Shown piece by piece: positions 2,457 through 63,806 of a stretch of DNA of 64,000 bases; position 1 is the first letter of the stretch, and the number at the start of each line of letters is the position of its first letter. The notes beneath the pieces were generated by a model. That model ran no database searches, was not told where the DNA came from, and saw only the letters and a program-made list of their open reading frames with translations. This DNA comes from Phycisphaera sp. (lineage in GTDB: Bacteria; Planctomycetota; Phycisphaerae; Phycisphaerales; SM1A02), in assembly GCA_016124975.1 (NCBI GenBank), contig WGMP01000036.1, positions 1 through 64,000 on the forward strand, written 5' to 3'. The position numbers were made by a program, and so were the translations under genes.

Positions 2457-2657
2457 GGATGTCTCGCTCGGAAGTGCACGGCCGTTCGCCGCCCGCACCG
2501 TCGCAGGCGGCGAGCGTGCCTCGACGCCCGAGCCGATGCGTGCATTCCCGAAAAAGAAAGCATCCGGCGACGCGGGTCGCCGGATGCGGGACTTTTTCTC
2601 TGGAGCGCCCTCGGCATCGCGCGATTCGCTCGCCCGATGCGCGTCTCCACCGCGGGT

Positions 2658-4208
<1,551 letters not shown>

Positions 4209-4293
4209 GTGTGTCTCGGAAAGCGTTTGCGTTGGCCCTTCCTGGGGCGCGGTCTCTGCCGCGGGTCCGCCGACGATCGGCAGGCCACGGCCT

Positions 4294-4315
4294 TTCATCC
4301 TTATATGCGGATGAA
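4294..4315 (-). promoter_or_regulatory. Palindrome in the ahcY leader, candidate operator
   Basis: TTCATCC and GGATGAA form a perfect 7-bp inverted repeat with an 8-base A/T-rich spacer (TTATATGC). It lies 86 bases upstream of the chosen ahcY start. Read on the ahcY strand the spacer gives GCATATAA, so a -10-like TATAAG overlaps the right arm. A dimeric helix-turn-helix repressor binding here would block the promoter. The ArsR-type regulator encoded at 5190-6131 is the obvious candidate, but that link is inference. Confidence 0.5.
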
Positions 4316-4416
4316 CGGGAGGATAGCCGCCGCACGCGTGGGGATCAAGGGACGGGAGCCGGAGTTTTGCCCCTGGCGCAGCCCTCCGAAGAGCGAGGCC
4401 GCGCTATCTTTGGCGC

Positions 4417-5088: not shown

Positions 5089-5139
5089 ACGCGCGCCGCG
5101 CCCGCTCCGAGTGAGCGGCGCCATCGCAAGCACGCCACA

Positions 5140-5170
5140 CGGCCCCGCCTCGCGCGGGGCCGTTTGATTG
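5140..5170. terminator. Intrinsic terminator between convergent genes
   Basis: A perfect 9-bp stem (CGGCCCCGC pairing with GCGGGGCCG, 5-base loop) is followed by GTTTGATT. It lies between the + strand metal-binding gene and the - strand ArsR fusion gene, and could stop transcription from both sides. The T-tract is better for the + direction. Confidence 0.7.
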
Positions 5171-5189
5171 GACGGACTGCGTTGCGGCG

Positions 5190-6131: not shown

Positions 6132-6156
6132 CGTGGGTCGGCCGTTCGCGCGGGGC

Positions 6157-6834: not shown

Positions 6835-6909
6835 GGGGCGGATGATACGGCCTTGCGGCGCGCGCGGGCGGGCCGCGCACGCGGGGGGAAAATCGGGGAA
6901 ACTCGGGCC

Positions 6910-7500
6910 GTGGACGCGCATGAACAGCCTGATTCGCCGAGCGAGGGAGAGGCGCGCCCGCCGCAATCCCCTGCGCAGGGCGCGTTTCCGCCCGGCGCCG
7001 CCGCGACCACGCCCCACGCGCCGCTGCGCGTGGCCCTTCCGCCGCTGCGCGTGGCCCTTCCGCCGCTGCGCGTGGCCCTTCCGCCGCTGCGCGTGGCCCT
7101 CGCGCTCCATACGGACGGGCTCGCGGCAGACCACCTCGATCTCTTCATCGGGCCCGACCAGGCCACCGACCCCGATGCGCGGATCGCACGCTCCTATCGT
7201 CTGCCGCTCGAGGCCCGTGCGGGGGATTCGATTCGCGTGGGAAGCCACGATGCCATGGAACTCGAGCCGCACCGAGCGGAATACCTCGCCCTCGCCGGGC
7301 CCCGCGAGCTGTCAGACGGGCGCGGGCGCGTCGAACCCGTCTTCTCAGCGCGCGCGCGGGGCGAAATCGCGGCGAACAGGTTCGACCTCGCGGTCGATCA
7401 CGCGGACGGGCCCCTTCGCCTTCGAGGCGCGCGCGGGCAGGACGGCCGATGGACGGTCGAGGCGCACAGGCATGACGGCGCGGGGACGCGCAGGACTTGA
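6910..7500 (+). CDS. Hypothetical protein with a tandem PLRVALP repeat
   Basis: No family was recognised. I choose this frame because its codons end mostly in G or C and the distal half reads like a folded domain (DHLDLFIGPDQATD, then RVGSHDAMELEPHRAEYLAL). A GTG start at 6910 gives 196 residues, and other starts are possible. Residues about 38-64 consist of four near-identical copies of a 7-residue unit, from a 21-bp DNA repeat. The C-terminal half looks beta-rich, with alternating acidic and hydrophobic residues. It is transcribed towards the DUF456 gene, 39 bases away, and may share its transcript. Divergent overlap is avoided with the lipoprotein gene starting at 6834. Confidence 0.55.
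   Translation: MDAHEQPDSPSEGEARPPQSPAQGAFPPGAAATTPHAPLRVALPPLRVALPPLRVALPPLRVALALHTDGLAADHLDLFIGPDQATDPDARIARSYRLPLEARAGDSIRVGSHDAMELEPHRAEYLALAGPRELSDGRGRVEPVFSARARGEIAANRFDLAVDHADGPLRLRGARGQDGRWTVEAHRHDGAGTRRT
7021..7101 (+). repeat. 21-bp in-frame tandem repeat, nearly four copies
   Basis: The unit CCGCTGCGCGTGGCCCTTCCG is repeated three times exactly, and a fourth copy diverges after 17 bases. A multiple of three bases keeps the reading frame, so copy number could vary between strains without breaking the gene. Confidence 0.9.
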
Positions 7501-7539
7501 TGAGCGAAGAACGGCACAAGTGACCGGAGAACCACGCGC

Positions 7540-8091
7540 GTGAACTATCTCGAGCACCTTCCCATCGGCATCGGCGCGCTCTTCTCGGCGTTCGGCGTGC
7601 TGTGCGTGTTCCTGGTGGTCGTGGGGCTTCCAGGAACCTGGATCCTGATCGCGACCGCGGTCCTGATCGACCTCCTCGACTGGCTGTGGCTTCAGCCCGA
7701 TGCGCCGCTCACCTTCCATCCGCTGACGCTCCTCGCCGCGGTGCTCATCGGACTCGTCGGCGAAATCCTCGAGTTCCTGCTGTCGGCGGCGGGCGCGAAG
7801 AAGTTCGGCGCATCGCCGCGCGGCATGCTCGGCTCGGTCGTGGGCGGCGTCGTTGGCGCGGTCTTCGGCACGGTTCTGATCTGGATTCCCCTGATCGGCA
7901 CGCTCGTCGGCGCGGTGCTCGGCACGGCCACGGGCGCCGTTCTCGGCGAGATGTGGGACGGCCGCACGACGCTGCGCGACTCCGCGAAGCCCGCGTTCGG
8001 CGCGGTGCTCGGGCGCGTGCTCGGCACGCTCTCGAAACTTCCCGTCGCGATCGGCGTCTGGGTGCTGCTCGCGGTGGCGGCGTTCCGCTGA
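7540..8091 (+). CDS. DUF456-family membrane protein
   Basis: The 183-residue protein has about four to five membrane segments and the hallmarks of DUF456: GLPGTWILIA in the first third, LVGEILEFLL, then KKFGASPRGMLGSVVGGVVGAVFG with glycine-rich helices. Function is unknown across the family. The GTG start is preceded by CCGGAGAACC, which contains a Shine-Dalgarno core. It ends 4 bases before the 3' end of the convergent pilB-like gene, so no room remains for a terminator. Confidence 0.88.
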   Translation: MNYLEHLPIGIGALFSAFGVLCVFLVVVGLPGTWILIATAVLIDLLDWLWLQPDAPLTFHPLTLLAAVLIGLVGEILEFLLSAAGAKKFGASPRGMLGSVVGGVVGAVFGTVLIWIPLIGTLVGAVLGTATGAVLGEMWDGRTTLRDSAKPAFGAVLGRVLGTLSKLPVAIGVWVLLAVAAFR

Positions 8092-8095
8092 AGCC

Positions 8096-10078
8096 TCAGC
8101 CGGCTTCCTCGGTCACGCTCATCACTTCCTCGACGGTGGTCTTGCCGAGGCGCACCTTGGCGAACCCGTCCTGGCGAAGCGTGGTCATGCCGCGCTCGAC
8201 GCAGAGCTTGCGGAACTCGACCACGTTCGGGTTCGCCGCGATCTTGTCGCGGAGATAGTCGTCGAGGACGAGCATCTCGTAGATGCCGAGTCGGCCCGAA
8301 TAGCCCGTCTGGCGGCACGCGGGGCAGCCGCGGCCGAGGCGAAGCGTGGAGGCGTCGATTCCGTGCTCGACGAGGAAGTCGTGCATCTCGGGCTCGATCG
8401 GGCGCTCGGCGGCGCACTTCGCGCAGATGCGGCGCACGAGACGCTGCGCGAGCACGCCGTTGAGCGCGGCACCGACGAGGAAGGGCTCGATGCCGATGTT
8501 GATGAGTCGCGTGATCGAGCTCGGGGCGTCGTTCGTGTGCAGCGTCGACAGCACGAGGTGTCCCGTGAGGGCGGCCTGGACGGCGGTGGTCGCCGTCTCT
8601 GCGTCGCGGATCTCGCCGAGCATGACCACATCGGGGTCCTGGCGGAGCAGCGCCTTGAGCGCGGCCGCGAAGGTCATGCCGATCCTGTCGTGGGTCTGGA
8701 TCTGGGTGATCCCCTGCAGGTTGTATTCGATCGGATCTTCCACTGTCGACACATTCATGCGCCGCGTGTCCATCTGGCGGATCGAGGCGTAGAGCGTGGT
8801 CGTCTTGCCGCTGCCCGTCGGGCCCGTGACGAGGAGCACGCCGTGCGGCTTGTCGATCTCGTGCTTCCAGATGCCGAGCGCCTCGGGGCTGAAGCCGAGA
8901 TCGTCGAGCGAGACGCTGATCGAGCGGCTGTCGAGGATTCGCATGACCGTCTTCTCGCCCTTCGGCGTCGGCACGGTCGAGACGCGCAGGTCGAGCTTGC
9001 GGCCGAGGACCGTCGCGCGGATGCGGCCGTCCTGCGGGAGGCGGCGCTCGGCGATGTCGAGGTTCGCCATGATCTTGATGCGGCTCGTGAGCGCGGCGTG
9101 CATCTTGCGCGGCGGCGTCATCATCTCGAAGAGGACGCCGTCGATGCGGAAGCGCACCTTGAGCACCTTCTCGTCGGGCTCGATGTGGATGTCGGAGGCG
9201 CCTTCCTTGAGCGCGGTCTGGATGATGTGGTTGACATAGCGGACGATGGGCGAGCTCTCCGCCTCGCCCTCGAGGTCGCGCTCGTTCACATCCTCCTTCT
9301 CGACGCTGACATCCTCCTCGTCGACGCCCGAGAGGATCTCCTCGAGGTTGACTTCCTCGGCCTGGTGGCGCGCCTCGGCGTCGGAGATTCCTTGGAGCAC
9401 CGCCGCGATGTCGGAGGCGGCCGCGAGGACATGCCGCACGGGGCCCGCGCCGATCCGCTTGCGGATGTCGTCGAGGAGGAACACATCGGCGGGATTCGCC
9501 GTGGCGACGAGCATGCGCCCCGACTCCGCGCGCAGCGGCAGCACGAAGTGGCTGCGGCAGTACTCAAGGCCGAGCTTCGCCACCGCGTGCGCGTCGTACG
9601 ACGACGGGGACTTCGGCTCGAGCACCTCGAAGGGCATTCGCGCGAGCTCCGCGACCACGGCCTGCATGGCGCGCTCGGGAACCCCCTGCTCCCTCAGGAT
9701 GTCGACGAGCCGGCGGCCGGGCGACTGCTTGAGCAAACGGCTTGCGGCGAGGAGCTGCTCGGCGGACGCGATGCCGCGCTCAGCGAGGATCGCCTCGAGC
9801 GTGGCGCTCTCTGTCTTGTGCGCGGCGTCGGGGACATAGAGGTCGCGCATCGCGTCGGCACCGCTTGGTCGCGCGGGAGCGGCGGGCTTTGGCGCGGGGG
9901 CGTTCGCGACGGGCGCGGGCGCTGGAACCGCGGCCGCAGGAAGAGGCGTGGCGGCCGCGGGGACAGGCGCGGGCCGAGCCGTGGACGCAGGCGCATCGCC
10001 CGCGGGCGCCGACGGGTTCTCCGTCGCGATCTTTCCCGTCGCCTTGCGGATGATGTCCTCGAGATCGAATCGTCCCAC
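8096..10078 (-). CDS. Type IV pilus/type II secretion assembly ATPase (PilB/GspE)
   Basis: This cytoplasmic hexameric ATPase powers pilin polymerisation or pseudopilus extension. The 660-residue protein has an alanine/proline-rich linker (about 20-75), a GspE N-terminal domain, and a C-terminal ATPase core. The Walker A sequence GPTGSGKTTTLY is near residue 419. The Asp and His box region DPDVVMLGEIRDAET is near residue 482, with STLHTNDA after it. The family zinc site is visible as CAKC near 553 and CPAC near 583. A GTG start preceded by GAGGAGAAGG fits. It is the last gene of the pilM-N-O-P cluster, 49 bases after pilP, which points to a type IV pilus rather than a secretion role. Confidence 0.93.
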   Translation of the reverse strand: MGRFDLEDIIRKATGKIATENPSAPAGDAPASTARPAPVPAAATPLPAAAVPAPAPVANAPAPKPAAPARPSGADAMRDLYVPDAAHKTESATLEAILAERGIASAEQLLAASRLLKQSPGRRLVDILREQGVPERAMQAVVAELARMPFEVLEPKSPSSYDAHAVAKLGLEYCRSHFVLPLRAESGRMLVATANPADVFLLDDIRKRIGAGPVRHVLAAASDIAAVLQGISDAEARHQAEEVNLEEILSGVDEEDVSVEKEDVNERDLEGEAESSPIVRYVNHIIQTALKEGASDIHIEPDEKVLKVRFRIDGVLFEMMTPPRKMHAALTSRIKIMANLDIAERRLPQDGRIRATVLGRKLDLRVSTVPTPKGEKTVMRILDSRSISVSLDDLGFSPEALGIWKHEIDKPHGVLLVTGPTGSGKTTTLYASIRQMDTRRMNVSTVEDPIEYNLQGITQIQTHDRIGMTFAAALKALLRQDPDVVMLGEIRDAETATTAVQAALTGHLVLSTLHTNDAPSSITRLINIGIEPFLVGAALNGVLAQRLVRRICAKCAAERPIEPEMHDFLVEHGIDASTLRLGRGCPACRQTGYSGRLGIYEMLVLDDYLRDKIAANPNVVEFRKLCVERGMTTLRQDGFAKVRLGKTTVEEVMSVTEEAG

Positions 10079-10127
10079 GGCCTTCTCCTCGTCTGTTTCC
10101 CGCAGCGTGCGCCGCAGGCTTCGGTCG

Positions 10128-10886
10128 CTACTCCTCCGCCGCGAGCTCGAGGCGCAACAGGCGCTCCGCGTTCAGCTCCGCGTTGGCCGCGCGGAGCGTG
10201 ATCGCGTCGAGCGCGACCGAGAGGATCTCGTAGCGCACGGGGTGATCGGGGAACATCACGACCTCGCCCACGCGGTAGACGCCGCCGTTCATGTTCACGA
10301 GGGACGCGGCGGGATTCGCAGCGACGAGCGTCGACTGGATCAGGAAGTCGCGCGCACCCTCGTCGACGAGCGCCTCCCATTCGGAAATGCGGAGCTCGCG
10401 CTCCTGCACGGCGGCGGCCTCAGCCTCGGCGGCCGCGTCGGCTGCGGACGCGGGCTCGGCGGGACGCGCGGGGTCGATCGGAGCCGCCGCTGCGAGAGAC
10501 GGCGCGAAGGGGTTGCGCGTGAGGAGCTTTCGCGGAATTCGCAGTTCGCGAGGCGCCTCGAGGGCGACGGGCTCCGATGCGCCAGCGGATGCCTTCGCGG
10601 CCGACGCGGTGGCGCCGGGCGCACGCTCCTTGAGGAACGACTCGACGAGCTGGCCCGCCTCGGACTGTGTGATCGAGTCGGCGGCACCGAGGCCGATCGC
10701 GCGCATCGACCAGAGGCTCGCCACGGCGGCGATCACCACCGCCAGCAGCACGAGGAAGGCGAAGCCGAAGCGGCGGCGGGTCGAGCCCGTGGTGACCGTG
10801 AAGTCGCCGTGGGCATCATGGTGATGACCTGCAGCGCCGTCGACGGCGCCGATGTCGGCGAGGCCGAGATCGTCGCGCGCGCTCAC
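10128..10886 (-). CDS. PilP-like pilus alignment protein
   Basis: The 252-residue protein has one transmembrane segment (about residues 38-58). A proline/alanine-rich linker follows, then a C-terminal beta domain with LVNMNGGVYRVGEVV and VRYEILSVALDAITLRA. This 'no new assignment of what the pilus is, only coupling' layout matches PilP, which links the inner-membrane PilN-PilO complex to the secretin PilQ. PilP is usually a lipoprotein, whereas this one is anchored by a helix and is longer. The GTG start overlaps the stop codon of pilO by four bases (GTGA), so translation is probably coupled. Assignment rests on position and fold pattern. Confidence 0.7.
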   Translation of the reverse strand: MSARDDLGLADIGAVDGAAGHHHDAHGDFTVTTGSTRRRFGFAFLVLLAVVIAAVASLWSMRAIGLGAADSITQSEAGQLVESFLKERAPGATASAAKASAGASEPVALEAPRELRIPRKLLTRNPFAPSLAAAAPIDPARPAEPASAADAAAEAEAAAVQERELRISEWEALVDEGARDFLIQSTLVAANPAASLVNMNGGVYRVGEVVMFPDHPVRYEILSVALDAITLRAANAELNAERLLRLELAAEE

Positions 10887-11497
10887 TTCGAGCCTCCTGT
10901 CGCTGCGGCTGCTGCGGACGCGGACGCGGCGGATGCGTTGAAGTAGATCGACAGCGTGAGCTCGGCGCGGATCTCCCCCGGCGCTGCATGCGTCGGCTTC
11001 GACTTTCGGTGCGGGTCGGAGCCGAGGCGGGTGATCCGCATGCTCTGCACGCGCGTGATGCGCGGGAGTCCTTCCACCGCGAGGAGGAACTCGTAGTAGC
11101 CGCCGAAGTCACCTTCGACGGTGAGGTTGAGCGGGATCTCCATCGCCGCACCCGCGCTGAGGGGCTTGTCACCCTTCACCGTGCGGACCGAGACGCCCGT
11201 GCGCTGGGCGATGCGGGTGAGTTCCTTGAGGAGGCCGTCAAGCCCCTCCTGGTCGGGAAGCCGCTCGTTGAGCTTGGCGAGCTCGACCTGTCGGTCCTCG
11301 ATCTCGCGGCCGAGGTCGCCGATCTGCGAGTTGAGCTGGCGAAGGCTCGCGAGCCGCGCCTCCTTGTTGCGGATCTCGGCGCGCGCGCTGGCGATTTCCT
11401 CGTTGCGCGGCGCGAACACGAAGACATACGCCGCGACGGGCATGCCGACGAGCGCTCCGAGAAGAAGCGTGCCGAGAAGCTGGCTGCGCGTGCTCAT
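10883..11497 (-). CDS. pilO: PilO-like pilus assembly protein
   Basis: The 204-residue bitopic membrane protein has a transmembrane helix at about residues 8-30. A coiled coil follows (about 33-80, with RNKEARLASLRQLNSQIGDL), then a ferredoxin-like periplasmic domain around LNLTVEGDFGGYYEFLLAVEGLPRITRV. This is the PilO layout. PilO pairs with PilN and aligns the assembly platform. The protein overlaps pilN by four bases upstream and pilP by four bases downstream, an arrangement that points to translational coupling. The C-terminus ends in an alanine-rich tail. Confidence 0.82.
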   Translation of the reverse strand: MSTRSQLLGTLLLGALVGMPVAAYVFVFAPRNEEIASARAEIRNKEARLASLRQLNSQIGDLGREIEDRQVELAKLNERLPDQEGLDGLLKELTRIAQRTGVSVRTVKGDKPLSAGAAMEIPLNLTVEGDFGGYYEFLLAVEGLPRITRVQSMRITRLGSDPHRKSKPTHAAPGEIRAELTLSIYFNASAASASAAAAATGGSK

Positions 11498-12330
11498 GGT
11501 GCATCTCCCTCGGCCGATGCCTGCTTGCGGAGGCCGCCGAGCAGCTGCGTGAGCGTGCCCAGCGCGCCACCTCCGCCGTCGGATGCCGACGCGGTGCGCT
11601 GCGCGTCGGTGATCTCCTTGAAGAGCGCGGGCGTGAGCCAGCGGCGTAGGTCGGCCTGCGGCTCGATCGACATGGACATGCGGAACTGGCTTGCGTCGAG
11701 TCCGTCGATGTCCTTCTCTTCCATCAGCTCGAGCCTCACGCCCGAGAGAATGGGAATGCGCTCGAGCGCGGTCATCCAGCGGCCGACCTCGAGCAGGCTC
11801 GGGGCCGCGCCGACGATGACGATGTTCACCCGACGAACGATTGGCGCGGGGCGCTCGGGCGCGGCCGGCGCGGCGCCCTTCGACTTCGCGGCCTTCTCCT
11901 TCGCGGCCTTCTCCTTGGCCGCCTTCGCCTGCTCCTCGGCGCTTGGCTTCGGAGGCTTGACGATCTCGCTGCGGAGGTCGAGCTCGAGCAGCGTGACGCC
12001 CTCGGGCATCGTGTTGATCAGGAGCGCGAGAAGCGCCGAGCGCGGGACGGGCTCGATGAGGCCGCGAGCGAGCGCGGCCTTCTCGTTCATCTGCGCGCGG
12101 ATCCGCTCGAGATTGCGCATCTCGGCGATCTCCTTCGCGGCCTTTTCGGTGCGCTGCCCGACCGTCTCCTGCAGCGTGCGCACATCGTTCCACTGGCGGT
12201 TCGTGAAGAGGAACGCCGCGAAGATCGCGATGATCATCACGGGAAAGAGCACCGCGGCGATGAGGCCCGTGCGGCGCTCGCGTGTCTCGAGCACGAAGTC
12301 GTCGGGGAGGAAGCTTTGCTCGCTGGGCAT
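11494..12330 (-). CDS. pilN: PilN-like pilus assembly protein
   Basis: The 278-residue protein starts with a cytoplasmic stretch (MPSEQSFLPDDFVLETRERR) that corresponds to the conserved N-terminal peptide by which PilN binds PilM. A transmembrane helix (about 22-44), a coiled coil (45-95) and a periplasmic alpha/beta domain follow. An insertion of lysine/alanine repeats (AAKEKAAKEKAAKSKGAA, about residues 137-155) interrupts the periplasmic part and is unusual. GAGGGAG precedes the ATG. It lies 12 bases after pilM. Confidence 0.82.
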   Translation of the reverse strand: MPSEQSFLPDDFVLETRERRTGLIAAVLFPVMIIAIFAAFLFTNRQWNDVRTLQETVGQRTEKAAKEIAEMRNLERIRAQMNEKAALARGLIEPVPRSALLALLINTMPEGVTLLELDLRSEIVKPPKPSAEEQAKAAKEKAAKEKAAKSKGAAPAAPERPAPIVRRVNIVIVGAAPSLLEVGRWMTALERIPILSGVRLELMEEKDIDGLDASQFRMSMSIEPQADLRRWLTPALFKEITDAQRTASASDGGGGALGTLTQLLGGLRKQASAEGDAP

Positions 12331-54920: not shown

Positions 54921-56282
54921 TCAGGCCCTGGCGATCAGCATCGCCAGCTCAAGCGCCTGCTCGTAGTTGAGCCGCGGATCGACCTGCGAGCGGTAGGCCC
55001 GCGAGAGGTCGTCGTCGGTCAGGCCGCGCGCGCCGCCCGTGCATTCCGTCACATTCTCGCCGGTCAGCTCGACATGGACGCCCGCGAGCGGCACGCCCTC
55101 GCCGCGGTGGATCTCGATCGCCTGATGCGCCTCCGCGAGGACATGGGCGAACTTGCGCGTCTTGACGCTCTTCCCCGCCCAGGCGCCCGCCGCGGGGACG
55201 ACCGTCTCCGTGTTCCCGTGCATCGGGTCGCACACCCAGACGACCGGCATGCCGGACTCGCGCACGGCTCGGAGGAGCGGCGGAAAGGCGCGGCCGATCC
55301 TGTGCGCGCCGAAGCGCGTCACGAGCACCACGCGACCCTCCTCGCCATCGGGCGACAGCGTGCGCACGGTCGAGAGAAGCGCCTCGACCGTCGTGTCGGG
55401 GCCGACCTTGACGCCGACGGGATTGCGGATGCCGCGGCAGAACTCGAGGTGCGCGCCGTCGGGGGCGCCCGTGCGCACGCCAATCCACGGAAGGTGCGTC
55501 GAGAGGTTGAACCAGCCGTCGCGGCGCGGGACCTGCCGCGTGAGCGCGGACTCGTAGTCGAGGACGAGCAGCTCGTGGCTCGTATAGAAGTCGACGCGCT
55601 GCATCGCGGCGATCGTGCCACCGGCGAGCGTCTCCATGAAGCGCAGGCTCTCGCCGATCGAGTCGACCATGCGCTGGTACTCGGCCGCGAGCGGCGAATG
55701 CCGCACGAACTCGAGGTCCCAGTTCTCGGGGTGGTGGAGATCCGCGAAGCCGCCGTCGACGAGCGAGCGCACGAAGTTCAGGGTCAGCGCGCTGCGCTCG
55801 TAGCCGCGCAGAAGAAGCGTCGGGTCGGGCGCGCGCGCAGCGGCCGTCGGCTCGGGGTGGTTGATGTTGTCGCCGCGATAGGTGGGAAGCTCGACCCCGT
55901 CGATGGTCTCGGTCGCGGCGCTGCGCGGCTTCGCGTACTGCCCCGCGAAGCGGCCGATGCGGGTGATGCGCTTGCGCATCCCGTGCACCAGCACGAGGCT
56001 CATCTGGAGCAGGATTTTCAGCTTCGCGGCGATCGCCGACGAGTTGCAGTCCGCAAAGCTCTCCGCGCAGTCGCCGCCCCACAGGATGAAGCGCTCGCCG
56101 CGCGCAGCCTCCGCAAGCTGCGCCTTGAGGCTCTCGATCTCGTAGCTCGTCACCAACGGCGGCAGCGCCCCCACCTCGGCAAGCACCCGCTCGAGCGCGG
56201 CCCGGTCGGGATAGACCGGCTGCTGCCTGCAGGGGTAGGCGCGCCAGCTCTGCGGAGACCACGCTCGATCGCTCGAAGACAT
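54921..56282 (-). CDS. Class II (plant-type) 3-deoxy-D-arabino-heptulosonate 7-phosphate synthase
   Basis: This enzyme joins phosphoenolpyruvate and erythrose 4-phosphate in the first step of the shikimate pathway. The 453-residue protein carries the class II signatures: WSPQSWRAYPCRQQPVYPD at the start, ILWGGDCAESFADC (metal cysteine near residue 69), RIGRFAGQYAKPRS, YRGDNINHPE, and CDPMHGNTETV near residue 345. It is of normal length. The start at 56282 agrees with the family. No other aromatic biosynthesis gene is adjacent. It is divergent from the DoxX gene across a tRNA. Confidence 0.93.
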   Translation of the reverse strand: MSSSDRAWSPQSWRAYPCRQQPVYPDRAALERVLAEVGALPPLVTSYEIESLKAQLAEAARGERFILWGGDCAESFADCNSSAIAAKLKILLQMSLVLVHGMRKRITRIGRFAGQYAKPRSAATETIDGVELPTYRGDNINHPEPTAAARAPDPTLLLRGYERSALTLNFVRSLVDGGFADLHHPENWDLEFVRHSPLAAEYQRMVDSIGESLRFMETLAGGTIAAMQRVDFYTSHELLVLDYESALTRQVPRRDGWFNLSTHLPWIGVRTGAPDGAHLEFCRGIRNPVGVKVGPDTTVEALLSTVRTLSPDGEEGRVVLVTRFGAHRIGRAFPPLLRAVRESGMPVVWVCDPMHGNTETVVPAAGAWAGKSVKTRKFAHVLAEAHQAIEIHRGEGVPLAGVHVELTGENVTECTGGARGLTDDDLSRAYRSQVDPRLNYEQALELAMLIARA

Positions 56283-56307
56283 GGAGAAAGGGTAGCGATC
56301 GCCACCC

Positions 56308-56450
56308 ACAGCGTCCGCGACCGCTCAAACCACGCGCTCTCCAGCACCAGAGGAAGCCGCCGCAGCGGCGACCGCTCCTACCACGCGGCCGCAGCGGCGA
56401 CCGCTCATACGAAGCACCAAAGGAAGCCGCCGCAGCGGCGACCGCTCAAA
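56308..56450 (-). repeat. Cluster of GCCGC-palindrome repeats
   Basis: Two complete copies (56342-56378 and 56412-56450) and at least two partial copies lie between the DAHP synthase gene start and the tRNA 3' end. All share CAGCGGCGACCGCTC. The full copies carry the AGCACCA-AGGAAGCCGCCG lead. Confidence 0.85.
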
Positions 56451-56453
56451 CAA

Positions 56454-56537
56454 TGCGGGCGACAGGGCTCGAACCTGCACGGGAGTTACCCCACAGGAAC
56501 CTAAATCCTGTGCGTCTGCCAATTCCGCCACGCCCGC
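56454..56537 (-). tRNA. tRNA-Leu (anticodon UAG)
   Basis: The 84-base sequence folds as a class II tRNA with a 7-bp acceptor stem (GCGGGCG with CGCCCGC, discriminator A). The anticodon stem is ACAGGA/TCCTGT with a 7-base loop TTTAGGT, giving UAG, which reads CUA and related leucine codons. The TpsiC arm has GGTTCGAGCC. The long variable arm around TGGGGTAACTCCCG is typical of leucine tRNAs. CCA is not encoded. Confidence 0.93.
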
Positions 56538-56625
56538 ACGAGCCGAGATTGTACGGGCAAGCCTCCTCCTGCCGATTTGGGGGGCATCGTCAGCGGCTCC
56601 CGATCCCGCGCAGAACCCCTCAGCC

Positions 56626-57255
56626 ATGAAGTTCCTCCAGCAGGCATCCTCGAACCTCGTGCCGATCCTCGCGCGGATCCTGCTGTTCCTTGCGTTTGTG
56701 CCGACAGGCTGGCACCACGCCATGGAGCAGACGCTCTTCACGGGCGCCGAAGCCGCCCGCATCCGCGAACTCGGCATCGCGAGCGCGCCGCACGGATTCG
56801 CGGGCGGCACGCAGATGGCCTCGCTCCAGGACACGCCGCCCCTTCCCGCCGTCGCGATGGACGCGCAGGGCGTGCAGGCGCGTTCGCTGCATGAACTCAC
56901 GCTCTTCTTCGACGGGCGCGGTCTGCCGAAGCCCGTGGTCCTCGCCTGGACGGTGACCATCTTCGAACTCATAGGCGGCGCACTCGTCCTGGTCGGGCTC
57001 TTCACGCGGCTCTGGTCGGGAGGACTGGCAATCTGGGCGCTCGGGCTCTTCCTCGTGTCCACGCCCTCGATCGGCGAGGCGTTCGCGTCGTTCTGGAAGC
57101 CGACCGACCCCGCGGCCGCGATGCCGCGCACCCTCGCGCTCGGACAGCTCGGGCTTCTCGTTCTTGCGCTCTGGATCACGGCCTCGGGCGCCGGGCGCTA
57201 CAGCCTCGACGGGCTCATCTTCAAGGGCCGCGGCGGCGGCTCGGACGAAGAGTGA
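56626..57255 (+). CDS. DoxX-family membrane protein
   Basis: The 209-residue protein has four predicted membrane helices. The first (LARILLFLAFVPTGWHHAM) and the third (VVLAWTVTIFELIGGALVLVGLFTRLW) show the DoxX/SURF4-like pattern. Residues 40-90 form an exported loop. DoxX proteins have been linked to redox balance or quinone metabolism, but the function is generally open. The C-terminus ends in a short basic/acidic tail (FKGRGGGSDEE). It stands alone, 218 bases before the VWA operon. Confidence 0.8.
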   Translation: MKFLQQASSNLVPILARILLFLAFVPTGWHHAMEQTLFTGAEAARIRELGIASAPHGFAGGTQMASLQDTPPLPAVAMDAQGVQARSLHELTLFFDGRGLPKPVVLAWTVTIFELIGGALVLVGLFTRLWSGGLAIWALGLFLVSTPSIGEAFASFWKPTDPAAAMPRTLALGQLGLLVLALWITASGAGRYSLDGLIFKGRGGGSDEE

Positions 57256-57473: not shown

Positions 57474-58553
57474 ATGGCGCAGACGGCAAACGCCACGCGG
57501 CATGATTCCCATGCTCCGACCAGGCGCAGGCGAGGCCCGCTTGCGAAGGGCGTGGCGGTGTCGCTGCTCGTGCATGCGGGGATCGCCTCCGCGATCCTTG
57601 GCGCGGCTTGGGGCGTGGCGGTCGTCTCGAAGAGCGCGGACACGCGCGCGCCCATCGTGCTCGTCGCGGACTTCGCCGACCCTGCCCCTGCCCCGCCACG
57701 CGAGCCAGATCGGCCGTCTACAGCGTCTTCGCCTGCTGCTGCGATCGAGCCGGCCATCGCCACCGACGAACTCGCGGCGCGCCTGCGGGCGCTCGAGCAG
57801 ACTTCCGATGCCGCGAACCCAGCGCTCGACGCCATCGCCCGCCGGTTCGGCGCGCTTTCCCCCGCAGGCGAGGGCGCGGGAGAGACCGAGGCGCCGATCG
57901 TCGGGCGCGGCGCGAGCTTCGCGGGGCTTGTCGCGGGCACGGCGACGAGCGTCGCCTATGTCGTCGATGCCTCTGGGTCGATGGCGGGGTCGTTCCCCGC
58001 GATCGTCGACGAGGTCGCGCGCTCGCTCGCGAGGCTCGATCCTTCGCAGCGCTTCACGGTCGTCTGCTTCCGCCGCGACGGCGCCGTGGCGCTCGGAGGC
58101 GACGGAGCGCTTCGGCCCGCGACCGCCGACGCCACGCGCGAGGCGGTGCGGTGGCTTCGCGAGGGCGTGGTGCCGAGCGGACGATCGAGCCCGCTCGAGG
58201 CGCTGCGCGTCGCGCTCCGCTCGGGCGCGGACTGCGTCTTCCTGCTCTCGACGACGGTCACGGGGCCCGGGCGGCACGAGCTCGACCGCGCCGCGCTCCT
58301 CGAGGCGATGGAGGCGCTCAATCCACGCGACCCGCGCAGCGGCGCTCGCCGTGCCACGATCCAGTGCATCCAGTTCCTCGAGGAGGACCCCGGCGGCGCG
58401 CTCTCGGCGCTTGCGGACGCGCACTTCGGCGCGGGCGGGTACAGGTTCATCAGCCGCGGCGACGCGGGCTTCGACGGAGGAGGCTTCGACGAGCCGAGAG
58501 TCGATGAGGCGGAGTTCGAGGGGTCACGCGACGCGCAAGGAAACAGCCCATGA
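57474..58553 (+). CDS. VWA-domain protein with TonB-like N-terminal membrane anchor
   Basis: The 359-residue protein starts with a basic stretch and a transmembrane helix (about residues 25-50, VAVSLLVHAGIASAILGAAW), the layout of TonB-like membrane anchors. A proline-rich linker and a von Willebrand A domain (about 155-320) follow. The MIDAS site DASGS begins at residue 165, and the later aspartate/threonine positions lie in FLLSTTVTG. It overlaps the TolQ gene by four bases. VWA domains next to TolQ/TolR usually mediate metal-dependent protein contacts, and the target is unknown. Upstream, CCGCGGGGAGCTCCGCGG forms a palindrome near 57419. Confidence 0.82.
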   Translation: MAQTANATRHDSHAPTRRRRGPLAKGVAVSLLVHAGIASAILGAAWGVAVVSKSADTRAPIVLVADFADPAPAPPREPDRPSTASSPAAAIEPAIATDELAARLRALEQTSDAANPALDAIARRFGALSPAGEGAGETEAPIVGRGASFAGLVAGTATSVAYVVDASGSMAGSFPAIVDEVARSLARLDPSQRFTVVCFRRDGAVALGGDGALRPATADATREAVRWLREGVVPSGRSSPLEALRVALRSGADCVFLLSTTVTGPGRHELDRAALLEAMEALNPRDPRSGARRATIQCIQFLEEDPGGALSALADAHFGAGGYRFISRGDAGFDGGGFDEPRVDEAEFEGSRDAQGNSP

Positions 58554-59218
58554 ACGGACGGATCTTCTTCTACGCGGCGAACGGCGACGGCTCGATCGAA
58601 TGGATCGGAAGCGCCATGATCTGGGGCCTCATCGCGCTCTCGGTCGTGAACATCGTCCTCATCGCCGCAGCGGCGATCTCGAACAGGCGCAGGGACATGC
58701 TCCCCCCCTCGGAAGCGCAGGAGCTGCGCGCGCTTCTCGCCTCGGGCAGGCGGCGCGACGCCGCGGAGCTGGCGGGCCGCGGCAGGAGCGACCTCGCGCG
58801 CATCGTCTCGCGCACGCTCGACCACGCAGACAGCGGCGCGGAGGCGATGCTGCGGGCGTCGGAGCAGGCCGCGGACGAGATTCTGTCGCATCGCCTCCGT
58901 GCGCTTGAGAAACTCAATGTCATCGGACAGGTCGCGCCGATGATCGGACTCTTCGGCACGATCTACGGCATGATCGTGTCGTTCCAAGGGGTCGCCGCCA
59001 CGGGAGGAGCCGCGGACCCGGGCATCCTCGCGGGCGGCATCGGCACCGCGCTCATCACCACCTTCTGGGGTCTTCTGATCGCGATTCCCGCGCTGAGCGC
59101 GTATGCGCTCGTGCGCAACGGTGCGATCGCCGTGTCCGACGAGACGCTCGCCGCGGTGGACGAGATGGTGTCGCTCCTTCGACCGCGGGGCGCGGCCGAT
59201 GCGGCGCAGGAGGTCTGA
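58550..59218 (+). CDS. MotA/TolQ/ExbB-family proton channel protein
   Basis: The 222-residue inner-membrane protein has one early helix (about 22-45), a cytoplasmic region, and two later helices. The family core is VIGQVAPMIGLFGTIYGMIVSFQGVA (near residue 120) and GTALITTFWGLLIAIPALSAYALV (near 165), which includes the conserved threonine and proline of the channel. With TolR-type partners it converts proton motive force into movement in the envelope. It overlaps the VWA gene and ends 6 bases before the first TolR-type gene. Confidence 0.9.
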   Translation: MNGRIFFYAANGDGSIEWIGSAMIWGLIALSVVNIVLIAAAAISNRRRDMLPPSEAQELRALLASGRRRDAAELAGRGRSDLARIVSRTLDHADSGAEAMLRASEQAADEILSHRLRALEKLNVIGQVAPMIGLFGTIYGMIVSFQGVAATGGAADPGILAGGIGTALITTFWGLLIAIPALSAYALVRNGAIAVSDETLAAVDEMVSLLRPRGAADAAQEV

Positions 59219-59224
59219 ACCACG

Positions 59225-59713
59225 ATGGCGCGCGATCGACGCATCCAGCGCACCACCTCGATCGAGGCGAATCTCACGCCGATGATCGATGTCACCTTCC
59301 TGCTCGTCGTCTTCTTCGCGCTCGTGTCGGGAATCACGAGCCGCGACCAGATCGCGATGCAGCTCGCGCGCGTGCTGCCCGGCGCCGCGGCGAAGCCCGA
59401 CGCAGACGCGCGGTGGGTGCTGCAGGTCGTGCCCGCCGCAGATGGGAAGGCGGACGGATATGCGCTGAACGGCGTCGTCTACTCCGCGGACGCCGATGGC
59501 GCGGAGGGCGTGGCGCGCGCGCTTGCGGAGGGCTATCGCGCGAATCCGCGTCTCGAGGTCCATCTGCGCGCAGACCGAGCCACCGAGTTCCGCTGGGTCG
59601 AGCCCGCGATGCGCGCGGCGACCACCGCGGCGCGGCTCGCGGGCGGCGATGCGCTGCCGCGGCTCAACCTCGTCGTCGAGGAAGCAAGGAGGGCCGCGCG
59701 CGATGGCGCGTGA
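59225..59713 (+). CDS. ExbD/TolR-family protein 1
   Basis: The 162-residue protein begins with a cytoplasmic stretch and one membrane helix containing the key aspartate: LTPMIDVTFLLVVFFALVSG, with aspartate near residue 23. A periplasmic alpha/beta domain follows. In ExbD/TolR this aspartate carries the proton. The gene is followed by a second, different copy that overlaps its end by 11 bases, so the operon supplies two ExbD/TolR-type subunits. Confidence 0.88.
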   Translation: MARDRRIQRTTSIEANLTPMIDVTFLLVVFFALVSGITSRDQIAMQLARVLPGAAAKPDADARWVLQVVPAADGKADGYALNGVVYSADADGAEGVARALAEGYRANPRLEVHLRADRATEFRWVEPAMRAATTAARLAGGDALPRLNLVVEEARRAARDGA

Positions 59714-60221
59714 AGAGCGCGACCACCGCTCACGCATGCGCGACCCGCGCCAGCGCGCGCGCGCGGCGCTGTCGATCACGCCGCTCATCGACGTCGTGTT
59801 CCAGCTGTTGATCTACTTCCTGCTGACGGCGGGATTCGCGGTAAACGAGCGCCACCTGCGCACGGAGCACGCCGCGGAGGCGCCGAACGCGGCGCGCGCG
59901 CAGCTTTTGCTCGAGGAGGAGCCGCTGCGGATCTCGGTCGCCCGCGCTGCGGATGGCGCGGCGATCTCGGTCGACGGCGCGCTCGGGCTCGCGCGCGCGC
60001 GCGGCGCGGAGAGGCCCGAAGACCTCGCTGCGCTCGCGCGCTTCCTTGACGGCGCGCTTCTCGTCGCGGGCGAGCGTGGACGCGAGGGCGGCGCGCTCAC
60101 GGCAGACCATCCCGTGCGCATCCTCGCCGACGGAGATGTGCCGTGGGAGGAAGTCGTGCGTGTCTTCAACACCGTCGTCGGAGCGGGCTATCGCTCGGTC
60201 GCGTTCGGAGGCGCGAGATGA
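59703..60221 (+). CDS. ExbD/TolR-family protein 2
   Basis: The 172-residue protein has the same design as its neighbour: basic N-terminus, helix LSITPLIDVVFQLLIYFLLTAGF with the proton-carrying aspartate near residue 29, and a periplasmic domain (about 50-170). The N-terminus is longer and rich in arginine. It overlaps both the first TolR-type gene and the large exported protein gene, the latter by four bases. The two subunits may form a heterodimer in the complex. Confidence 0.87.
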   Translation: MAREERDHRSRMRDPRQRARAALSITPLIDVVFQLLIYFLLTAGFAVNERHLRTEHAAEAPNAARAQLLLEEEPLRISVARAADGAAISVDGALGLARARGAERPEDLAALARFLDGALLVAGERGREGGALTADHPVRILADGDVPWEEVVRVFNTVVGAGYRSVAFGGAR

Positions 60222-62677
60222 GGTGCGACCAGCCTTCGCTGCGCGGGTGCGCGTCGGTCGCGTGCGTGGCGATTGCCCTTGCGGGAATCGCGGTGCCGAC
60301 CGCGATGGCTGCGCACGCCGCGCCGCACGCCGCGCTGCAGGCGGCGGACGAACTCGTCGGAGACTTCCGTGCGATCCGCGCCGCGGAGGCCGCGATGGAT
60401 CGGGCGCGCATCGAGGAGATCCTGCGGCTTGCGGACGGCAAGCGTCGAGGAGAGCCGCGCGGCCTCGTCGCGGCGCGCGCGTGGAACGCGCTCCAGGCGG
60501 TCGAACTCCGACGCGCCGCGACCACGGCCGCGGCGCTCGTGGCGGCGGAGGACACGATCGAGTCTTCGCGCGACGCGCTGATCGAGAGCCTGCGCGGCGG
60601 CGGCCTCGACGCAGCGCGGGCGCTGCAGGCCGAGCTCGTCCTTGAGTCGGCGGAGGATCTCCTGCTGCGGCGGCTCGCGGCGCCCGCGACGGACGCGATG
60701 CTTGCGGTTGGCCTCCCCCTGGAGGCGGAGCTTGTCGCAGCGACCCGCGTGTCGGCGGCGGTGCGCGCGCGGCTCGTCGATGGCGCGCTCGCGGAGCCAG
60801 GCGACGCGTCGCGCTCGTTCCGCGTGCGCGTCCTTCGCGGGCTTTCGGCGCTGCTTGAGCATGATCTTGCGCGCCTCGCGCAGAAGGAGGACGCGGCGCG
60901 GCCCGCGGGCGATGCCCGCGCGCGGGCGCTCGCCGCGCTCGACGAGGCGGCGGCGTCGGGTGTCGAGGCGCCGCAGGCGCTGAGGGATGTGCTTGCGCTC
61001 GCGCAGGCGAGGTCGTCGAGCGACCCCGTGCGACGCGCAGCGCTTCTTCAGACCGCGGCCGAAAGCGACGACGACGCAACGGCACTCGTCGCGAAGATCG
61101 AGGCGTGGCGCGACGCGGGGCTTTCCGGCGACGCGCCGCGCGCGGGCGCGGGCGCCGAGCTCCTCGCGCAGCTTTCGCTCGCCGCAGAGGTGCGCGCGCG
61201 CGCCGAGGCGGGCGAGGGCGCGGCATCCATCGCGGCTGCGACCGAGCGCTGGATCGACCGCGCCGGGCGTGGCTCGACCGAGGCGGCGGCGCAGCGCATC
61301 GCGGCGGTGCTCGCGACGATTCCCGTCGACGAGACGACTTCGCCCACGCTGGTCGCGCTCCGCGTACTCCTGCCGGCGGGGCGATCGCCCGCGCCGCCGC
61401 GCGAGGCGCTGCTCGCCGCGGCGCGCGACGCACGCGTCGGGCCTGTGGTTGCGATCCGCGTCGCAGAGGCGCTTCTCCGCGCGGGCGATGCGGATGGCGC
61501 GGCGTCGCTCATCCTCGCATCGATCGAGCGGTTCGACGAGCTGCCCGCCGCGCGCGGAGCGCTTGAGATCGCGCTCGAGGTGCGACGCCTGCGCGCGTTG
61601 TCCGCGGTCTCTGTGCGCATGGCTGCAGCGGACGGCGCGATCACGCAAGAGGACGCGGCGCTCGCGGACGCCTTGCGGATTGCCTCGAGCCGCTTCGCGC
61701 GCGATGCGGCAGCGCCGTCCTGGCGGCTCGAGCGCGCGCTCCTCGGGGCAGAAGAGGCTTCAGGTGGGACAGCGCCCTCCGAAGCCGCGGACGCAGCGCC
61801 TCCGTGGCTCGTGCGCGCGCTTGGCGCGCAAGAGGAGATCCGCGCCGCGGACGCAGCGCGTGCGCGCGGCGACATGCAGGTCGCCTTCGCGAGGCTCGAC
61901 GGGGCGCTCGCCCTGCTCGCGCCGGCTGCGGATTCCGTCGCCGCGCACACGCACGCGGAGCGTCGTGTCGCGCTGCGCGCGGCGTGGCGATGGCTCGAGC
62001 TCGCGGCCTCCGACGATGCCCCGCGCGATGCGACGACGGAGGCGCCCGCCGCGCTCGCCCTGCTTGCGACTGCGTCGCCCGCGGTCGGTGCGCACGCGCG
62101 CGCCGTTCTTCCCGCGTTGACTGATCGGGCTGCGCTCGTCCTCGACCTCTTTCCATCGCGAGAGGCCGCTGCGCCCCTCGAGGCAACGCTTCGTTTGCTC
62201 GCAAGACTCGCGGCCGCGACCGCGCACGACGGCGGCGACGACCGCGTGTGCGCGGCGGCGCGCGCGATCGCGGATCTCCTCGCGGGCGAGCACGCGGCGG
62301 CCGAGGAAACCGCGCGTGCGGCGCTCGTGCGCACGGCGGACGACCGCGCGCTCCTCTGGGCGCTCGCGGAGTCGCTGCGACGCGCGGGCACCCGCGAGTC
62401 GCTCGACGAGTCGTTCACGCGCTTCCGCGCGCTTGCGCCCGTTGCACGGGAAGACCGCGACACTTGGTGGTGGCGCGGACAGCTCGGGCAGCTCGAGGTG
62501 CTCGCCGCGTCGATCGGCGAGCGGCAGGCGTCGCGCGCGGATATCGTCGCGCGCGTGAACCAGCTCTCCACGCTCGACCCGGCGCTCGGCGGCGGCGCAC
62601 TCCGCGCTCGCTTCGAGAAGGTGCGCATGCGTGCGGAGGAACCGCGACAGGGCCAATCGACGGGAGAGTCCCCATGA
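60218..62677 (+). CDS. Large exported alanine-rich helical protein
   Basis: The 819-residue protein starts with MRCDQPSLRGCASVACVAIALAGIAVPTAMA, a signal peptide with an internal cysteine. The rest is a nearly continuous array of amphipathic helices with weak TPR-like spacing (for example VGPVVAIRVAEALLRAGDADGAASLILASIERFDEL), rich in alanine and arginine. No catalytic motif is visible. Its place in the TolQ/TolR operon suggests a periplasmic scaffold driven by the proton channel. It shares four-base overlaps with the genes on both sides, as the other members do. Confidence 0.72.
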   Translation: MRCDQPSLRGCASVACVAIALAGIAVPTAMAAHAAPHAALQAADELVGDFRAIRAAEAAMDRARIEEILRLADGKRRGEPRGLVAARAWNALQAVELRRAATTAAALVAAEDTIESSRDALIESLRGGGLDAARALQAELVLESAEDLLLRRLAAPATDAMLAVGLPLEAELVAATRVSAAVRARLVDGALAEPGDASRSFRVRVLRGLSALLEHDLARLAQKEDAARPAGDARARALAALDEAAASGVEAPQALRDVLALAQARSSSDPVRRAALLQTAAESDDDATALVAKIEAWRDAGLSGDAPRAGAGAELLAQLSLAAEVRARAEAGEGAASIAAATERWIDRAGRGSTEAAAQRIAAVLATIPVDETTSPTLVALRVLLPAGRSPAPPREALLAAARDARVGPVVAIRVAEALLRAGDADGAASLILASIERFDELPAARGALEIALEVRRLRALSAVSVRMAAADGAITQEDAALADALRIASSRFARDAAAPSWRLERALLGAEEASGGTAPSEAADAAPPWLVRALGAQEEIRAADAARARGDMQVAFARLDGALALLAPAADSVAAHTHAERRVALRAAWRWLELAASDDAPRDATTEAPAALALLATASPAVGAHARAVLPALTDRAALVLDLFPSREAAAPLEATLRLLARLAAATAHDGGDDRVCAAARAIADLLAGEHAAAEETARAALVRTADDRALLWALAESLRRAGTRESLDESFTRFRALAPVAREDRDTWWWRGQLGQLEVLAASIGERQASRADIVARVNQLSTLDPALGGGALRARFEKVRMRAEEPRQGQSTGESP

Positions 62678-63528
62678 CCGACCAGGATCCGAGGAGCCCG
62701 CGCGACAACGGCGTCGACACCAGCGCGGACCGCGACCGCATCGACCGCTTCGAGGCGGCCTACAACCGCATCGACCGCGAGATGCAGCGGCTGCTGAACA
62801 ACGCGCGCGAAGGCCATCGACGCGGGTTCGCCTCGAGCGTGCGGCAGGTCTGCTCCGAGCGGCGGCATTTCGGGCGCCACCTCGACTTTCTTCTCGAGGC
62901 AGGAGAGCTCCGCAACGCGCTCGTCCACAACCGTTTCGGACACTCGGAGTACATCGCGGTCCCGACCGCCGCGACCGTCACGCAGCTCGAGCGGATCGAC
63001 GAGGAGCTGCGCAAGCCCGTGCAGCTGCGCGCACTCGCCGCGCGCGAGGTCGTGACGGTGTCGATCGACGACCGCGTCGGCCATGTGCTCGCGCTCGTGC
63101 GCGACAAGGGCTTCGTGCGGTTTCCCGTCACGCGCGACGGCAGGATCGTCGCGCTGCTCACGGCGAGCGGCGTCCTCCGCTGGGTCGCCTCGCACGACAT
63201 CGAGGCGTGCGCCGTCTCGGTCGACGGTGCAGTTCCACGCGCGCCCGCGGGTGCGCTCGATGAGCCGGGCCCCACGCGTGGCGGCGAAGGCGAGCGGATC
63301 ATCTGCACGATCGCGGGCGTCCGCGTTGGAGAGGTGCTCGCGCGCGACCACCGCCGCGACGAGTTCGCGATCGTTCCGCGCGACGCCACCGCAGATGCGG
63401 CGCTCTCGCGTTGGACGCACAACCCGCGTCTCGAGGCGATCATCGTGACGGAGAACGGCAAGCCCGACGAGAAGCCACTCGGGATCGCCACGGCGACGGA
63501 CCTCATCAAGCTGCTCGATGCGCGATGA
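62674..63528 (+). CDS. HEPN-like and CBS-domain protein
   Basis: The 284-residue cytoplasmic protein has two parts. Residues about 20-125 are helical and end in GELRNALVHNRF, where R80-N81-x3-H85 fits the RNxxxH pattern of HEPN domains. Two CBS-like motifs follow (about 130-185, RVGHVLALVRDKGFVRFPVTRDGRIVALLT, and 215-284, NPRLEAIIVTENGKPDEKPLGIATATDLIKLL). CBS pairs normally bind adenosine nucleotides and signal energy state. The combination could be a nucleotide-controlled RNase or a protein interaction module. It is the last gene of the VWA-TolQR operon, with a four-base overlap. Confidence 0.72.
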   Translation: MTDQDPRSPRDNGVDTSADRDRIDRFEAAYNRIDREMQRLLNNAREGHRRGFASSVRQVCSERRHFGRHLDFLLEAGELRNALVHNRFGHSEYIAVPTAATVTQLERIDEELRKPVQLRALAAREVVTVSIDDRVGHVLALVRDKGFVRFPVTRDGRIVALLTASGVLRWVASHDIEACAVSVDGAVPRAPAGALDEPGPTRGGEGERIICTIAGVRVGEVLARDHRRDEFAIVPRDATADAALSRWTHNPRLEAIIVTENGKPDEKPLGIATATDLIKLLDAR

Positions 63529-63529: not shown

Positions 63530-63562
63530 GAGCGGTCGCGGCTGCGGCGGCTTCCTTTGGCG
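63530..63562 (+). repeat. Copy of the GCCGC-palindrome repeat after the CBS gene
   Basis: The sequence GAGCGGTCGCGGCTGCGGCGGCTTCCTTTGG begins two bases after the stop codon. In the other copies the same order (GAGCGGTCG, G/C stem, TTCCTTTG) reads in the direction of the upstream gene. It may serve as this operon's terminator. Confidence 0.8.
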
Positions 63563-63570: not shown

Positions 63571-63806
63571 ACGCGTCGGAGTCCCCACACATGATTGTCG
63601 TGTCGGACGATTCAATCCGTCGGAGTCCCCAACCAAGTGTGCCAGCAGACTTCAGTCTGCTGAACGACAGCCGTCGGAGTCGAAGGCTGGCCTCATCCGT
63701 GCCGCATGCTGAAGCATGCGGGCACCCCTGATTTTCGTGTCGGGCGATTCAATCCGTCGGAGTCCCCACACATGATTGTCGTGTCGGACGATTCAAGCCG
63801 AACAGC
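63571..63806. repeat. Divergent relative of the 135-bp hairpin repeat
   Basis: The words TGTCGGACGATTCAATCCGTCGGAGTC recur, as in the array at 34 kb. Two hairpins are CAGCAGAC-ttca-GTCTGCTG (63643-63662) and CGCATGC-tgaa-GCATGCG (63703-63720). The stems differ from those at 34 kb in both arms together. Confidence 0.8.

Follow-up and report, generated by a model that had tools for sequence, protein, structure and literature searches.

Do six consecutive genes on one strand encode a single machine that spans the cell envelope? The question is raised by a stretch of 64,000 nucleotides from Phycisphaera sp. (contig WGMP01000036.1, positions 1 to 64,000; below, the window), which carries such genes at 57474-63528. 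An earlier note had described there a six-part set: an anchored VWA protein, a TolQ-like channel, two TolR-type subunits, a large exported helical protein and a cytoplasmic protein with RNxxxH and CBS motifs. It had not recognised the set as a described system. We read genes 1-5 as encoding a trans-envelope force transducer driven by protons, and gene 6 as a cytoplasmic accessory, probably an RNase controlled by adenine nucleotides. We put the probability of this reading at about 0.6. The source genome (G000; the window lies in its contig C50) has 3.6 Mb in 59 contigs and is 97.6% complete. All six open reading frames (ORFs) are present; they are given here with their upstream neighbour, which is not claimed as a part of the machine.

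57474..58553, + strand: gene 1, candidate VWA force-transducer protein, 359 amino acids (aa); alignments, AlphaFold2 model, Foldseek, S-x3-H control
58550..59218, + strand: gene 2, putative TolQ/ExbB-like proton channel, 222 aa; Pfam MotA_ExbB, E 1.5e-24
59225..59713, + strand: gene 3, TolR/ExbD-like subunit 1 (ExbD1), 162 aa; Pfam ExbD, E 7.8e-12
59703..60221, + strand: gene 4, TolR/ExbD-like subunit 2 (ExbD2), 172 aa; Pfam ExbD, E 4.8e-15
60218..62677, + strand: gene 5, large exported helical protein (HEL), 819 aa; profile comparison, TPR-bearing relatives, signal-like N-terminus
62674..63528, + strand: gene 6, HEPN-like protein with tandem CBS domains (CBS), 284 aa; Pfam CBS, E 9.1e-13
56626..57255, + strand: DoxX-family membrane protein; Pfam DoxX, E 2.2e-8

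Overlaps of 4, 11, 4 and 4 bases were found at four of the five junctions, not at five as had been claimed; the sole exception is the 6-base gap between the TolQ-like gene and ExbD1. In the Pfam search of the six proteins the VWA match was sub-threshold (0.018) and HEL had no match. All NCBIfam matches of the operon proteins were under their cut-offs.

The gene set is conserved in the genus. In thirteen of 16 genomes parts of the unit and CBS are arranged, up to the contig ends, as DoxX-VWA-TolQ-ExbD1-ExbD2-HEL-CBS (the CBS contig of G010 stops before HEL, and the unit is split over contigs in G002 and G004). In a fourteenth, G006, the order runs from DoxX through HEL to the contig end. CBS is present in 14 of the 16. 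No HEL or CBS match was found in G008, which is 82% complete.

At the level of the class, the VWA profile matches 133 of 198 genomes at E 1e-10, although the weak matches may reflect mere VWA-domain similarity. Forty loci, seven of them from the window's family, were picked by score and family spread, and thus the counts below do not describe a random sample. Two loci lie at a contig edge (L111, L120), leaving 38. The complete cassette, VWA-(optional gene)-TolQ-ExbD-ExbD-large protein on the same strand, is present in 29 of these, with large proteins of 703-1227 aa. The genes of the relatives were called by a custom script, so start sites and a few small genes may be wrong. Doubtful calls are one ExbD in L139, the VWA in L112 and a split ExbD in L180; the 29 include L139, where one ExbD was called, L112, where the VWA was seen by profile and left uncalled, and L146, with an 82-aa call in between. 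Five further loci (L118, L121, L124, L125, L126) have the VWA and large proteins and no motor, the two being a single fused ORF in L121; three (L136, L145, L150) have neither motor nor large protein. Overall, the large protein follows the VWA gene or the motor in 34 of the 38 loci, which bears out the proposal that it travels with the unit. The optional gene had TPR matches in four of the six cases tested, mostly under the Pfam cut-off. Since the order recurs in the genus and 29 of the 38 class loci are complete, the recurring set exceeds chance association.

Two further arrangements were noted. In G032 the cassette (L122, 6175-11907) has two VWA and three ExbD genes. The source genome itself contains a second, paralogous VWA operon (L074, G000:C30:73000-91000) at 2081-11764 on the - strand, in the order VWA (Pfam VWA_3 above the cut-off), 397 aa, TolQ, ExbD, ExbD, 901 aa, 1021 aa. 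The 901-aa and 1021-aa proteins have no Pfam match and do not match the family HEL profile.

The first gene has the layout of a tethered transducer: a basic N-terminus, one transmembrane helix (about 21-55) with S30-x3-H34, a low-confidence linker and a VWA domain (about 147-330). S-x3-H is the motif of TolA and of the TonB helix. In the class-wide alignment H34 is present in all 41 rows and S30 in 39, which agrees with the TonB-like anchor proposed earlier. The motif was counted in VWA proteins with a hydrophobic N-terminal segment, frames being lengthened 5' of the called start by as many as 60 codons. It lies near the transmembrane segment in 60 of 67 such proteins versus 5 of 259 other proteins encoded at these loci; the control in TolQ and ExbD proteins gave 2 of 166.

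The AlphaFold2 model from 41 sequences (mean predicted local distance difference test, pLDDT, 79.7) reproduces the helix, the low-confidence linker and an alpha/beta domain, with pLDDT mostly above 90 in the VWA region. The Foldseek matches of this model to VWA domains include 6fpy, 1shu and 4fx5, with E 5.6e-9 to ITIH1 and 2.4e-8 to the VWA domain of CMG2; a chain from an entry titled 'Infectious B19V capsid' heads the list. Thus a VWA fold of the C-terminal domain is supported by the predicted structure. The PDB sequence search with the VWA profile gave just four beta-lactamase matches (E 0.02-0.1). Of the metal-site (MIDAS) positions, D165 and S167 are conserved in all 41 rows and S169 in 38. 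The later positions vary: the S239 position is S in 14 rows, and the T260 position is D in 18. We take S239 and T260 to be the positions of the usual later MIDAS Thr and Asp.

The motor subunits contain conserved polar residues. T137 and T171 of the TolQ-like protein are present in 44 of 44 aligned sequences, and D22 of ExbD1 in 42 of 42; these correspond to pore residues of ExbB/TolQ and ExbD/TolR. The two ExbD proteins of the window both match Pfam ExbD and are 22% identical to each other. They represent two different TolR types, as the earlier note had it. The transmembrane Asp of ExbD2 aligns with D22 in all 20 alignment rows. The helix-Asp pattern is matched by 81 of 87 ExbD calls; among the other six, four show the Asp by eye, another begins with it and the last is a split call.

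The N-terminus of HEL, as read from the sequence, is signal-like, and its C-terminal end is conserved, with RxNRLxxxDxxLGG in the genus. In hhalign comparisons the genus HEL profile matched the same-position profiles of the family, the sister family f2, the order and the class with probabilities of 99.8%, 96.8%, 96.1% and 86.2%, respectively. The separate TPR gene, used as a control, gave 0.2% against the genus HEL, 4.2% against f2 and 20.6% against the family profile. TPR_19 was found in 13 of 28 family members of the HEL type (best E 4.7e-17). Because homology by profile extends over the class, plain hidden Markov model (HMM) matches are weaker and relatives carry TPR_19, HEL is a diverged, fast-evolving exported member of a class-wide TPR-type family with a recognisable C-terminal end.

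These features fit the vWA force transducers of unknown function predicted by Williams-Jones et al. (2025, Mol Biol Evol, PMC12204202, section 8). Their paper contains both a description and a model of such a set, and it reports no deletion phenotype. The shared features are a transmembrane helix with the Ser and His of the TolA/TonB motor-binding motif, a C-terminal VWA fold after a disordered linker, an adjoining tolQ-like gene with two different tolR-like genes, and an adjoining TPR gene. The last is represented here by HEL, as its same-position homologues carry TPR matches. The paper states that 'many' vWA force transducers have an SHLS motif, and thus SHLS alone does not define membership. 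Genes 1-5 fit this description, and therefore the core is not new, contrary to the earlier impression of an undescribed set. The window differs in other respects as well. Its VWA gene comes first and its TPR-type gene last, whereas the wording of the section puts VWA downstream; the L and the second S of SHLS are not conserved; a HEPN-like/CBS gene follows HEL; and nine relatives lack a dedicated motor, two of them having a VWA-TPR-type fusion. In our literature search, which covered few subscription papers, PMC12204202 was the one description of this system.

The window also differs from the canonical systems. Tol-Pal shares with it TolQ, TolR and a helix-tethered transducer with S-x3-H; however, the window has a VWA domain in place of the TolA C-terminal domain, and two different TolR types. 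The TonB-ExbB-ExbD system similarly shares an ExbB/ExbD-like motor and an S-x3-H anchor, whereas here VWA replaces the TonB C-terminal domain. No TolB, Pal, TolA C-terminal or TonB C-terminal Pfam match was found in the six operon proteins. A separate TonB cluster with a TonB-dependent receptor, two TolQ/ExbB-type proteins, an ExbD and a TonB_C protein is located elsewhere in the source genome (L073, 4518-13361, G000:C34). Canonical TonB or Tol-Pal identity was thus rejected.

A further variation was observed in the sister family f2. The class sample includes eleven f2 genomes with a VWA match. Nine of them (G208, G211, G034, G030, G025, G038, G136, G114, G142) contain no TolQ closer than E 1.1e-38, as compared with E 2.0e-66 and 3.7e-64 in G120 and G223, where the cassette is complete. 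In all nine the large protein, whose homology in f2 was assessed as a group profile, adjoins the VWA protein or is fused with it. The VWA protein and a large TPR-type protein form one ORF of 834 aa in G208 (L121, 8431-10935) and of 844 aa in G211 (L189, 2995-5529). S-x3-H is kept in all eight motor-less loci whose transmembrane helix lies within the retrieved DNA; either a paralogous motor serves these VWA proteins, or the helix has another role. As the pair persists without a dedicated motor and is fused in two genomes, comparison of these sequences argues that the VWA protein and the large exported protein are direct partners. To judge by the fusions, the working partner of the VWA protein is the large exported protein and not the motor alone.

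The mechanism that we propose is as follows. TolQ-like subunits around an ExbD1/ExbD2 pair would form an inner-membrane motor. The VWA protein may dock on the side of the motor via its S-x3-H helix, like TonB and TolA, and since the helix would dock there, strokes of the motor would move the periplasmic VWA domain. HEL, as the direct periplasmic partner, would pass the force to a target bound to the wall or the outer membrane. The most likely job of the machine would be Tol-Pal-like envelope maintenance. Gene 6 would have joined the operon at its 3' end in a part of the family; its expression is probably shared with the machine, and its product would remain outside the structure. The data show which genes are present and in what order, the conservation of the motifs, the VWA fold as predicted, the class-wide homology of the TPR-type protein and the separability of gene 6 from genes 1-5. 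The stoichiometry, the proton coupling, the VWA-TPR contact, the target and the physiological job in this scheme, as well as the RNase activity and nucleotide binding of gene 6 and its relation to the motor, are what we infer from these comparisons.

Gene 6 has the motif LRNALVHNR at 79-87, a CBS region at about 121-284 and no visible signal sequence, in line with the cytoplasmic protein with both motifs proposed earlier. Its AlphaFold2 model has four helices (16-40, 52-62, 64-87, 99-113) followed by the CBS pair, and the Rx4H motif (80-85) closes helix 3 of the four-helix N-domain. R80, N81 and H85 are invariant in 15 aligned rows. Together with L79 they are also invariant in seven distant rows, which represent Planctomycetota, a Chloroflexota and a Rhodococcus plasmid, and two contigs. 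The relatives on a Chloroflexota and a Rhodococcus plasmid and on the two contigs are full-length and 28-31% identical to gene 6. The contigs (L192 and L193; OR846607.1 and OR849199.1) are unverified 'phage' contigs of wastewater origin and may be bacterial DNA or contain mobile genes. According to PMC3710099, HEPN domains have Rx4-6H at the end of helix 3; the paper also mentions HEPN-CBS fusions, with a proposed role in nucleotide-controlled RNA degradation. The single-gene anti-phage system DS-11 is a HEPN-CBS protein in which HEPN and CBS residues are both required (PMC13092281). As far as these two descriptions go, gene 6 shares with such proteins the Rx4H motif with N after R and a helical domain joined to a CBS pair; there the proteins are single genes or other fusions, whereas here the gene is at the end of a motor operon. 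Because LRNxxxH is conserved in a helical N-domain, the sequence points to a predicted nucleotide-gated RNase of the HEPN type. With the whole model as the Foldseek query, the N-domain being left within it, the best 50 rows listed were CBS-type proteins.

The distribution of gene 6 differs from that of the cassette. No copy appeared in the 40 class loci. Of the 198 genomes in the class sample, two gave a CBS match, G024 and the source genome of the window; the first-look filter may miss distant ones. In the family, the CBS and VWA searches were treated as one draw of 151 genomes: 21 have a CBS match, 120 have a VWA match and 17 have both, leaving 103 of the 120 without a CBS match. Thus the six-part system as a conserved unit was ruled out.

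Linkage within the family is nevertheless frequent. CBS lies directly behind HEL in 17 of the 21 CBS-bearing genomes, across six genera. These are nine of the ten genus genomes drawn and G226, G227, G240, G241, G246, G267, G288 and G293. The spacing varies from overlap to a 144-base gap, and the contigs of G227 and G267 hold just the end of HEL. In nine of the 12 genus loci having both genes the overlap is 4 or 11 bases. An initial conclusion from 41 relatives and the class sample, that the linkage is limited to this genus, was overturned by the 151-genome search, which added five genera. The four other CBS-bearing genomes are G012, G024, G242 and G224. In G024 and G242 the cassette is about 758 kb and 515 kb away from CBS, respectively; in G224 (74% complete) there is no cassette beside CBS and no VWA match. 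In G026, of another family, no cassette was found in the 19 kb surrounding CBS.

In G012 (98% complete; L058, 10328-11827) DoxX is followed after 33 bases by CBS, the five-gene block between them being cleanly absent. This genome has no VWA or HEL match and no TolQ of this clade, the best TolQ match having E 2.8e-33 versus 1e-116 in G000. Genes 1-5 have been lost together, with gene 6 retained at the same site.

In the CBS tree, where G010 was counted as linked though its CBS contig stops before HEL, linked rows are found on both sides of the long branch that splits the genus from the rest. The tree was uninformative on gain versus loss of linkage (four changes versus a shuffled mean of 4.7; 133 of 500 shuffles as low). 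We conclude that gene 6 is an accessory restricted to this lineage; it does not belong to the core and is unlikely to be a chance neighbour. The earlier note had proposed that conserved order would support one complex, and that the last two genes would be chance neighbours if they rarely adjoined the motor. HEL regularly adjoins it; for CBS the order holds within a part of one family and not across the class.

The flanks of the operon were also considered. DoxX is located 5' of VWA in every genus locus whose contig reaches there, and the same Pfam family was observed upstream of VWA in four of four relatives tested (L113, L117, L119, L125). A divergent class-II DAHP synthase gene (identified by Pfam) and DoxX occupy 54921-57255, and similar-looking genes occur upstream in many family loci. 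The promoter scan gave no sigma-70-like sites. Three terminator-like sites were found versus 2.0 expected, one of them (63535-63548) just 3' of the operon. Directly 3' of the operon, at 63574-63800, there is a 46-nt direct repeat in three copies, the other two being 98% and 67% identical to the first.

Several observations weigh against the proposed force transducer and its accessory. Seven of the 67 VWA proteins lack S-x3-H (three of these have A-x3-H), and three further VWA proteins have no hydrophobic segment above the cut-off. In SHLS, L and S occur at +7 and +11, the TonB spacing; here just S and H are conserved, position 41 being L in 8 of 41 rows and position 45 being S in none. The metal site of the window's VWA domain is incomplete, with D165, S167 and S169 present and S239 and T260 variable. 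The genus HEL HMM reaches E <0.01 in just 6 of 35 same-position proteins, HEL of the window has no TPR match in Pfam, and at L144 the motor is present but the large protein is missing. As nine f2 genomes keep the VWA protein and HEL without a dedicated motor, either the proton drive is dispensable there or a paralogous motor supplies it. The Pfam search did not identify the N-domain of the CBS protein as HEPN (best match HEPN_Cthe2314, E 0.099, in one of five proteins). Finally, the strong linkage of gene 6 in the family would also fit a functional tie to the motor.

Two alternatives concern the role of gene 6 behind HEL. One, less likely than our reading, is that it is a passenger transcribed there for historical reasons and functionally unconnected. 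Indeed, it has stand-alone relatives in other phyla, it is unlinked or has no cassette found beside it in four of the 21 family genomes, and the G026 locus agrees with this. However, an idle neighbour would hardly be expected to stay linked in six genera, on both sides of the long branch. The linkage and the short overlaps with HEL speak for the other alternative, proposed in the earlier note, that gene 6 is a true regulator of the motor, its CBS pair reading ATP/AMP or another adenine nucleotide and coupling motor activity or synthesis to the energy state. This is rather unlikely, as gene 6 persists in G012 without the block, is unlinked in G024 and G242 despite their cassettes, and is missing from most VWA-positive family genomes; moreover, its conservation is strongest in the HEPN-type motif.

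Other alternatives concern the whole operon. In Myxococcus, AglRQS has one TolQ and two TolR subunits, and the VWA protein is a surface adhesin; the other partner genes are different. The window shares with this machinery the composition of the motor and a VWA domain, which in Myxococcus belongs to a protein of the wider system, and Williams-Jones et al., who mention the AglRQS/Glt gliding machinery, themselves suggest gliding for such machines (PMC12204202). Surface adhesion or gliding is nonetheless an improbable function here, given that the VWA domain of the window has an inner-membrane anchor and is not on the surface, and that its metal site is incomplete. It is quite improbable that the operon is a two-compartment sensor-effector, where the motor would read the envelope or the proton gradient and gate RNA cleavage by the HEPN-CBS protein, protecting against phage or envelope failure; if true, this arose by addition of a stand-alone nuclease to a housekeeping motor. 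A Zorya-like defence, with the motor as a sensor of envelope disturbance and the HEPN-CBS protein as an effector that cuts RNA, is very improbable. The layout of a motor with a cytoplasmic nuclease, the relatives of gene 6 on plasmids and the validated DS-11 system (PMC13092281) speak for it. However, PADLOC gave two weak matches for the operon, both to the TolQ-like protein (ZorA, E 0.016; Cas7_IIIh, E 0.42), with nothing else of Zorya at E <=1, and Zorya identity was rejected. The cassette is matched in 120 of 151 family genomes, mainly without gene 6, and since it is widespread and DoxX stays upstream, it looks vertical rather than mobile.

The force transducer with a lineage-restricted accessory is thus the reading that we prefer. 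The overlapping arrangement of the genes and the known kind of motor are ordinary. New within the literature searched are the retained, lineage-restricted HEPN-like/CBS accessory, the loss of the block in one congener, and the loss of the motor with retention and fusion of the VWA and TPR-type proteins in the sister family. With the block-loss genome, the motor-less family with its fusions and the HEPN-like/CBS gene tied to the operon, the vWA force transducers predicted in 2025 become testable.

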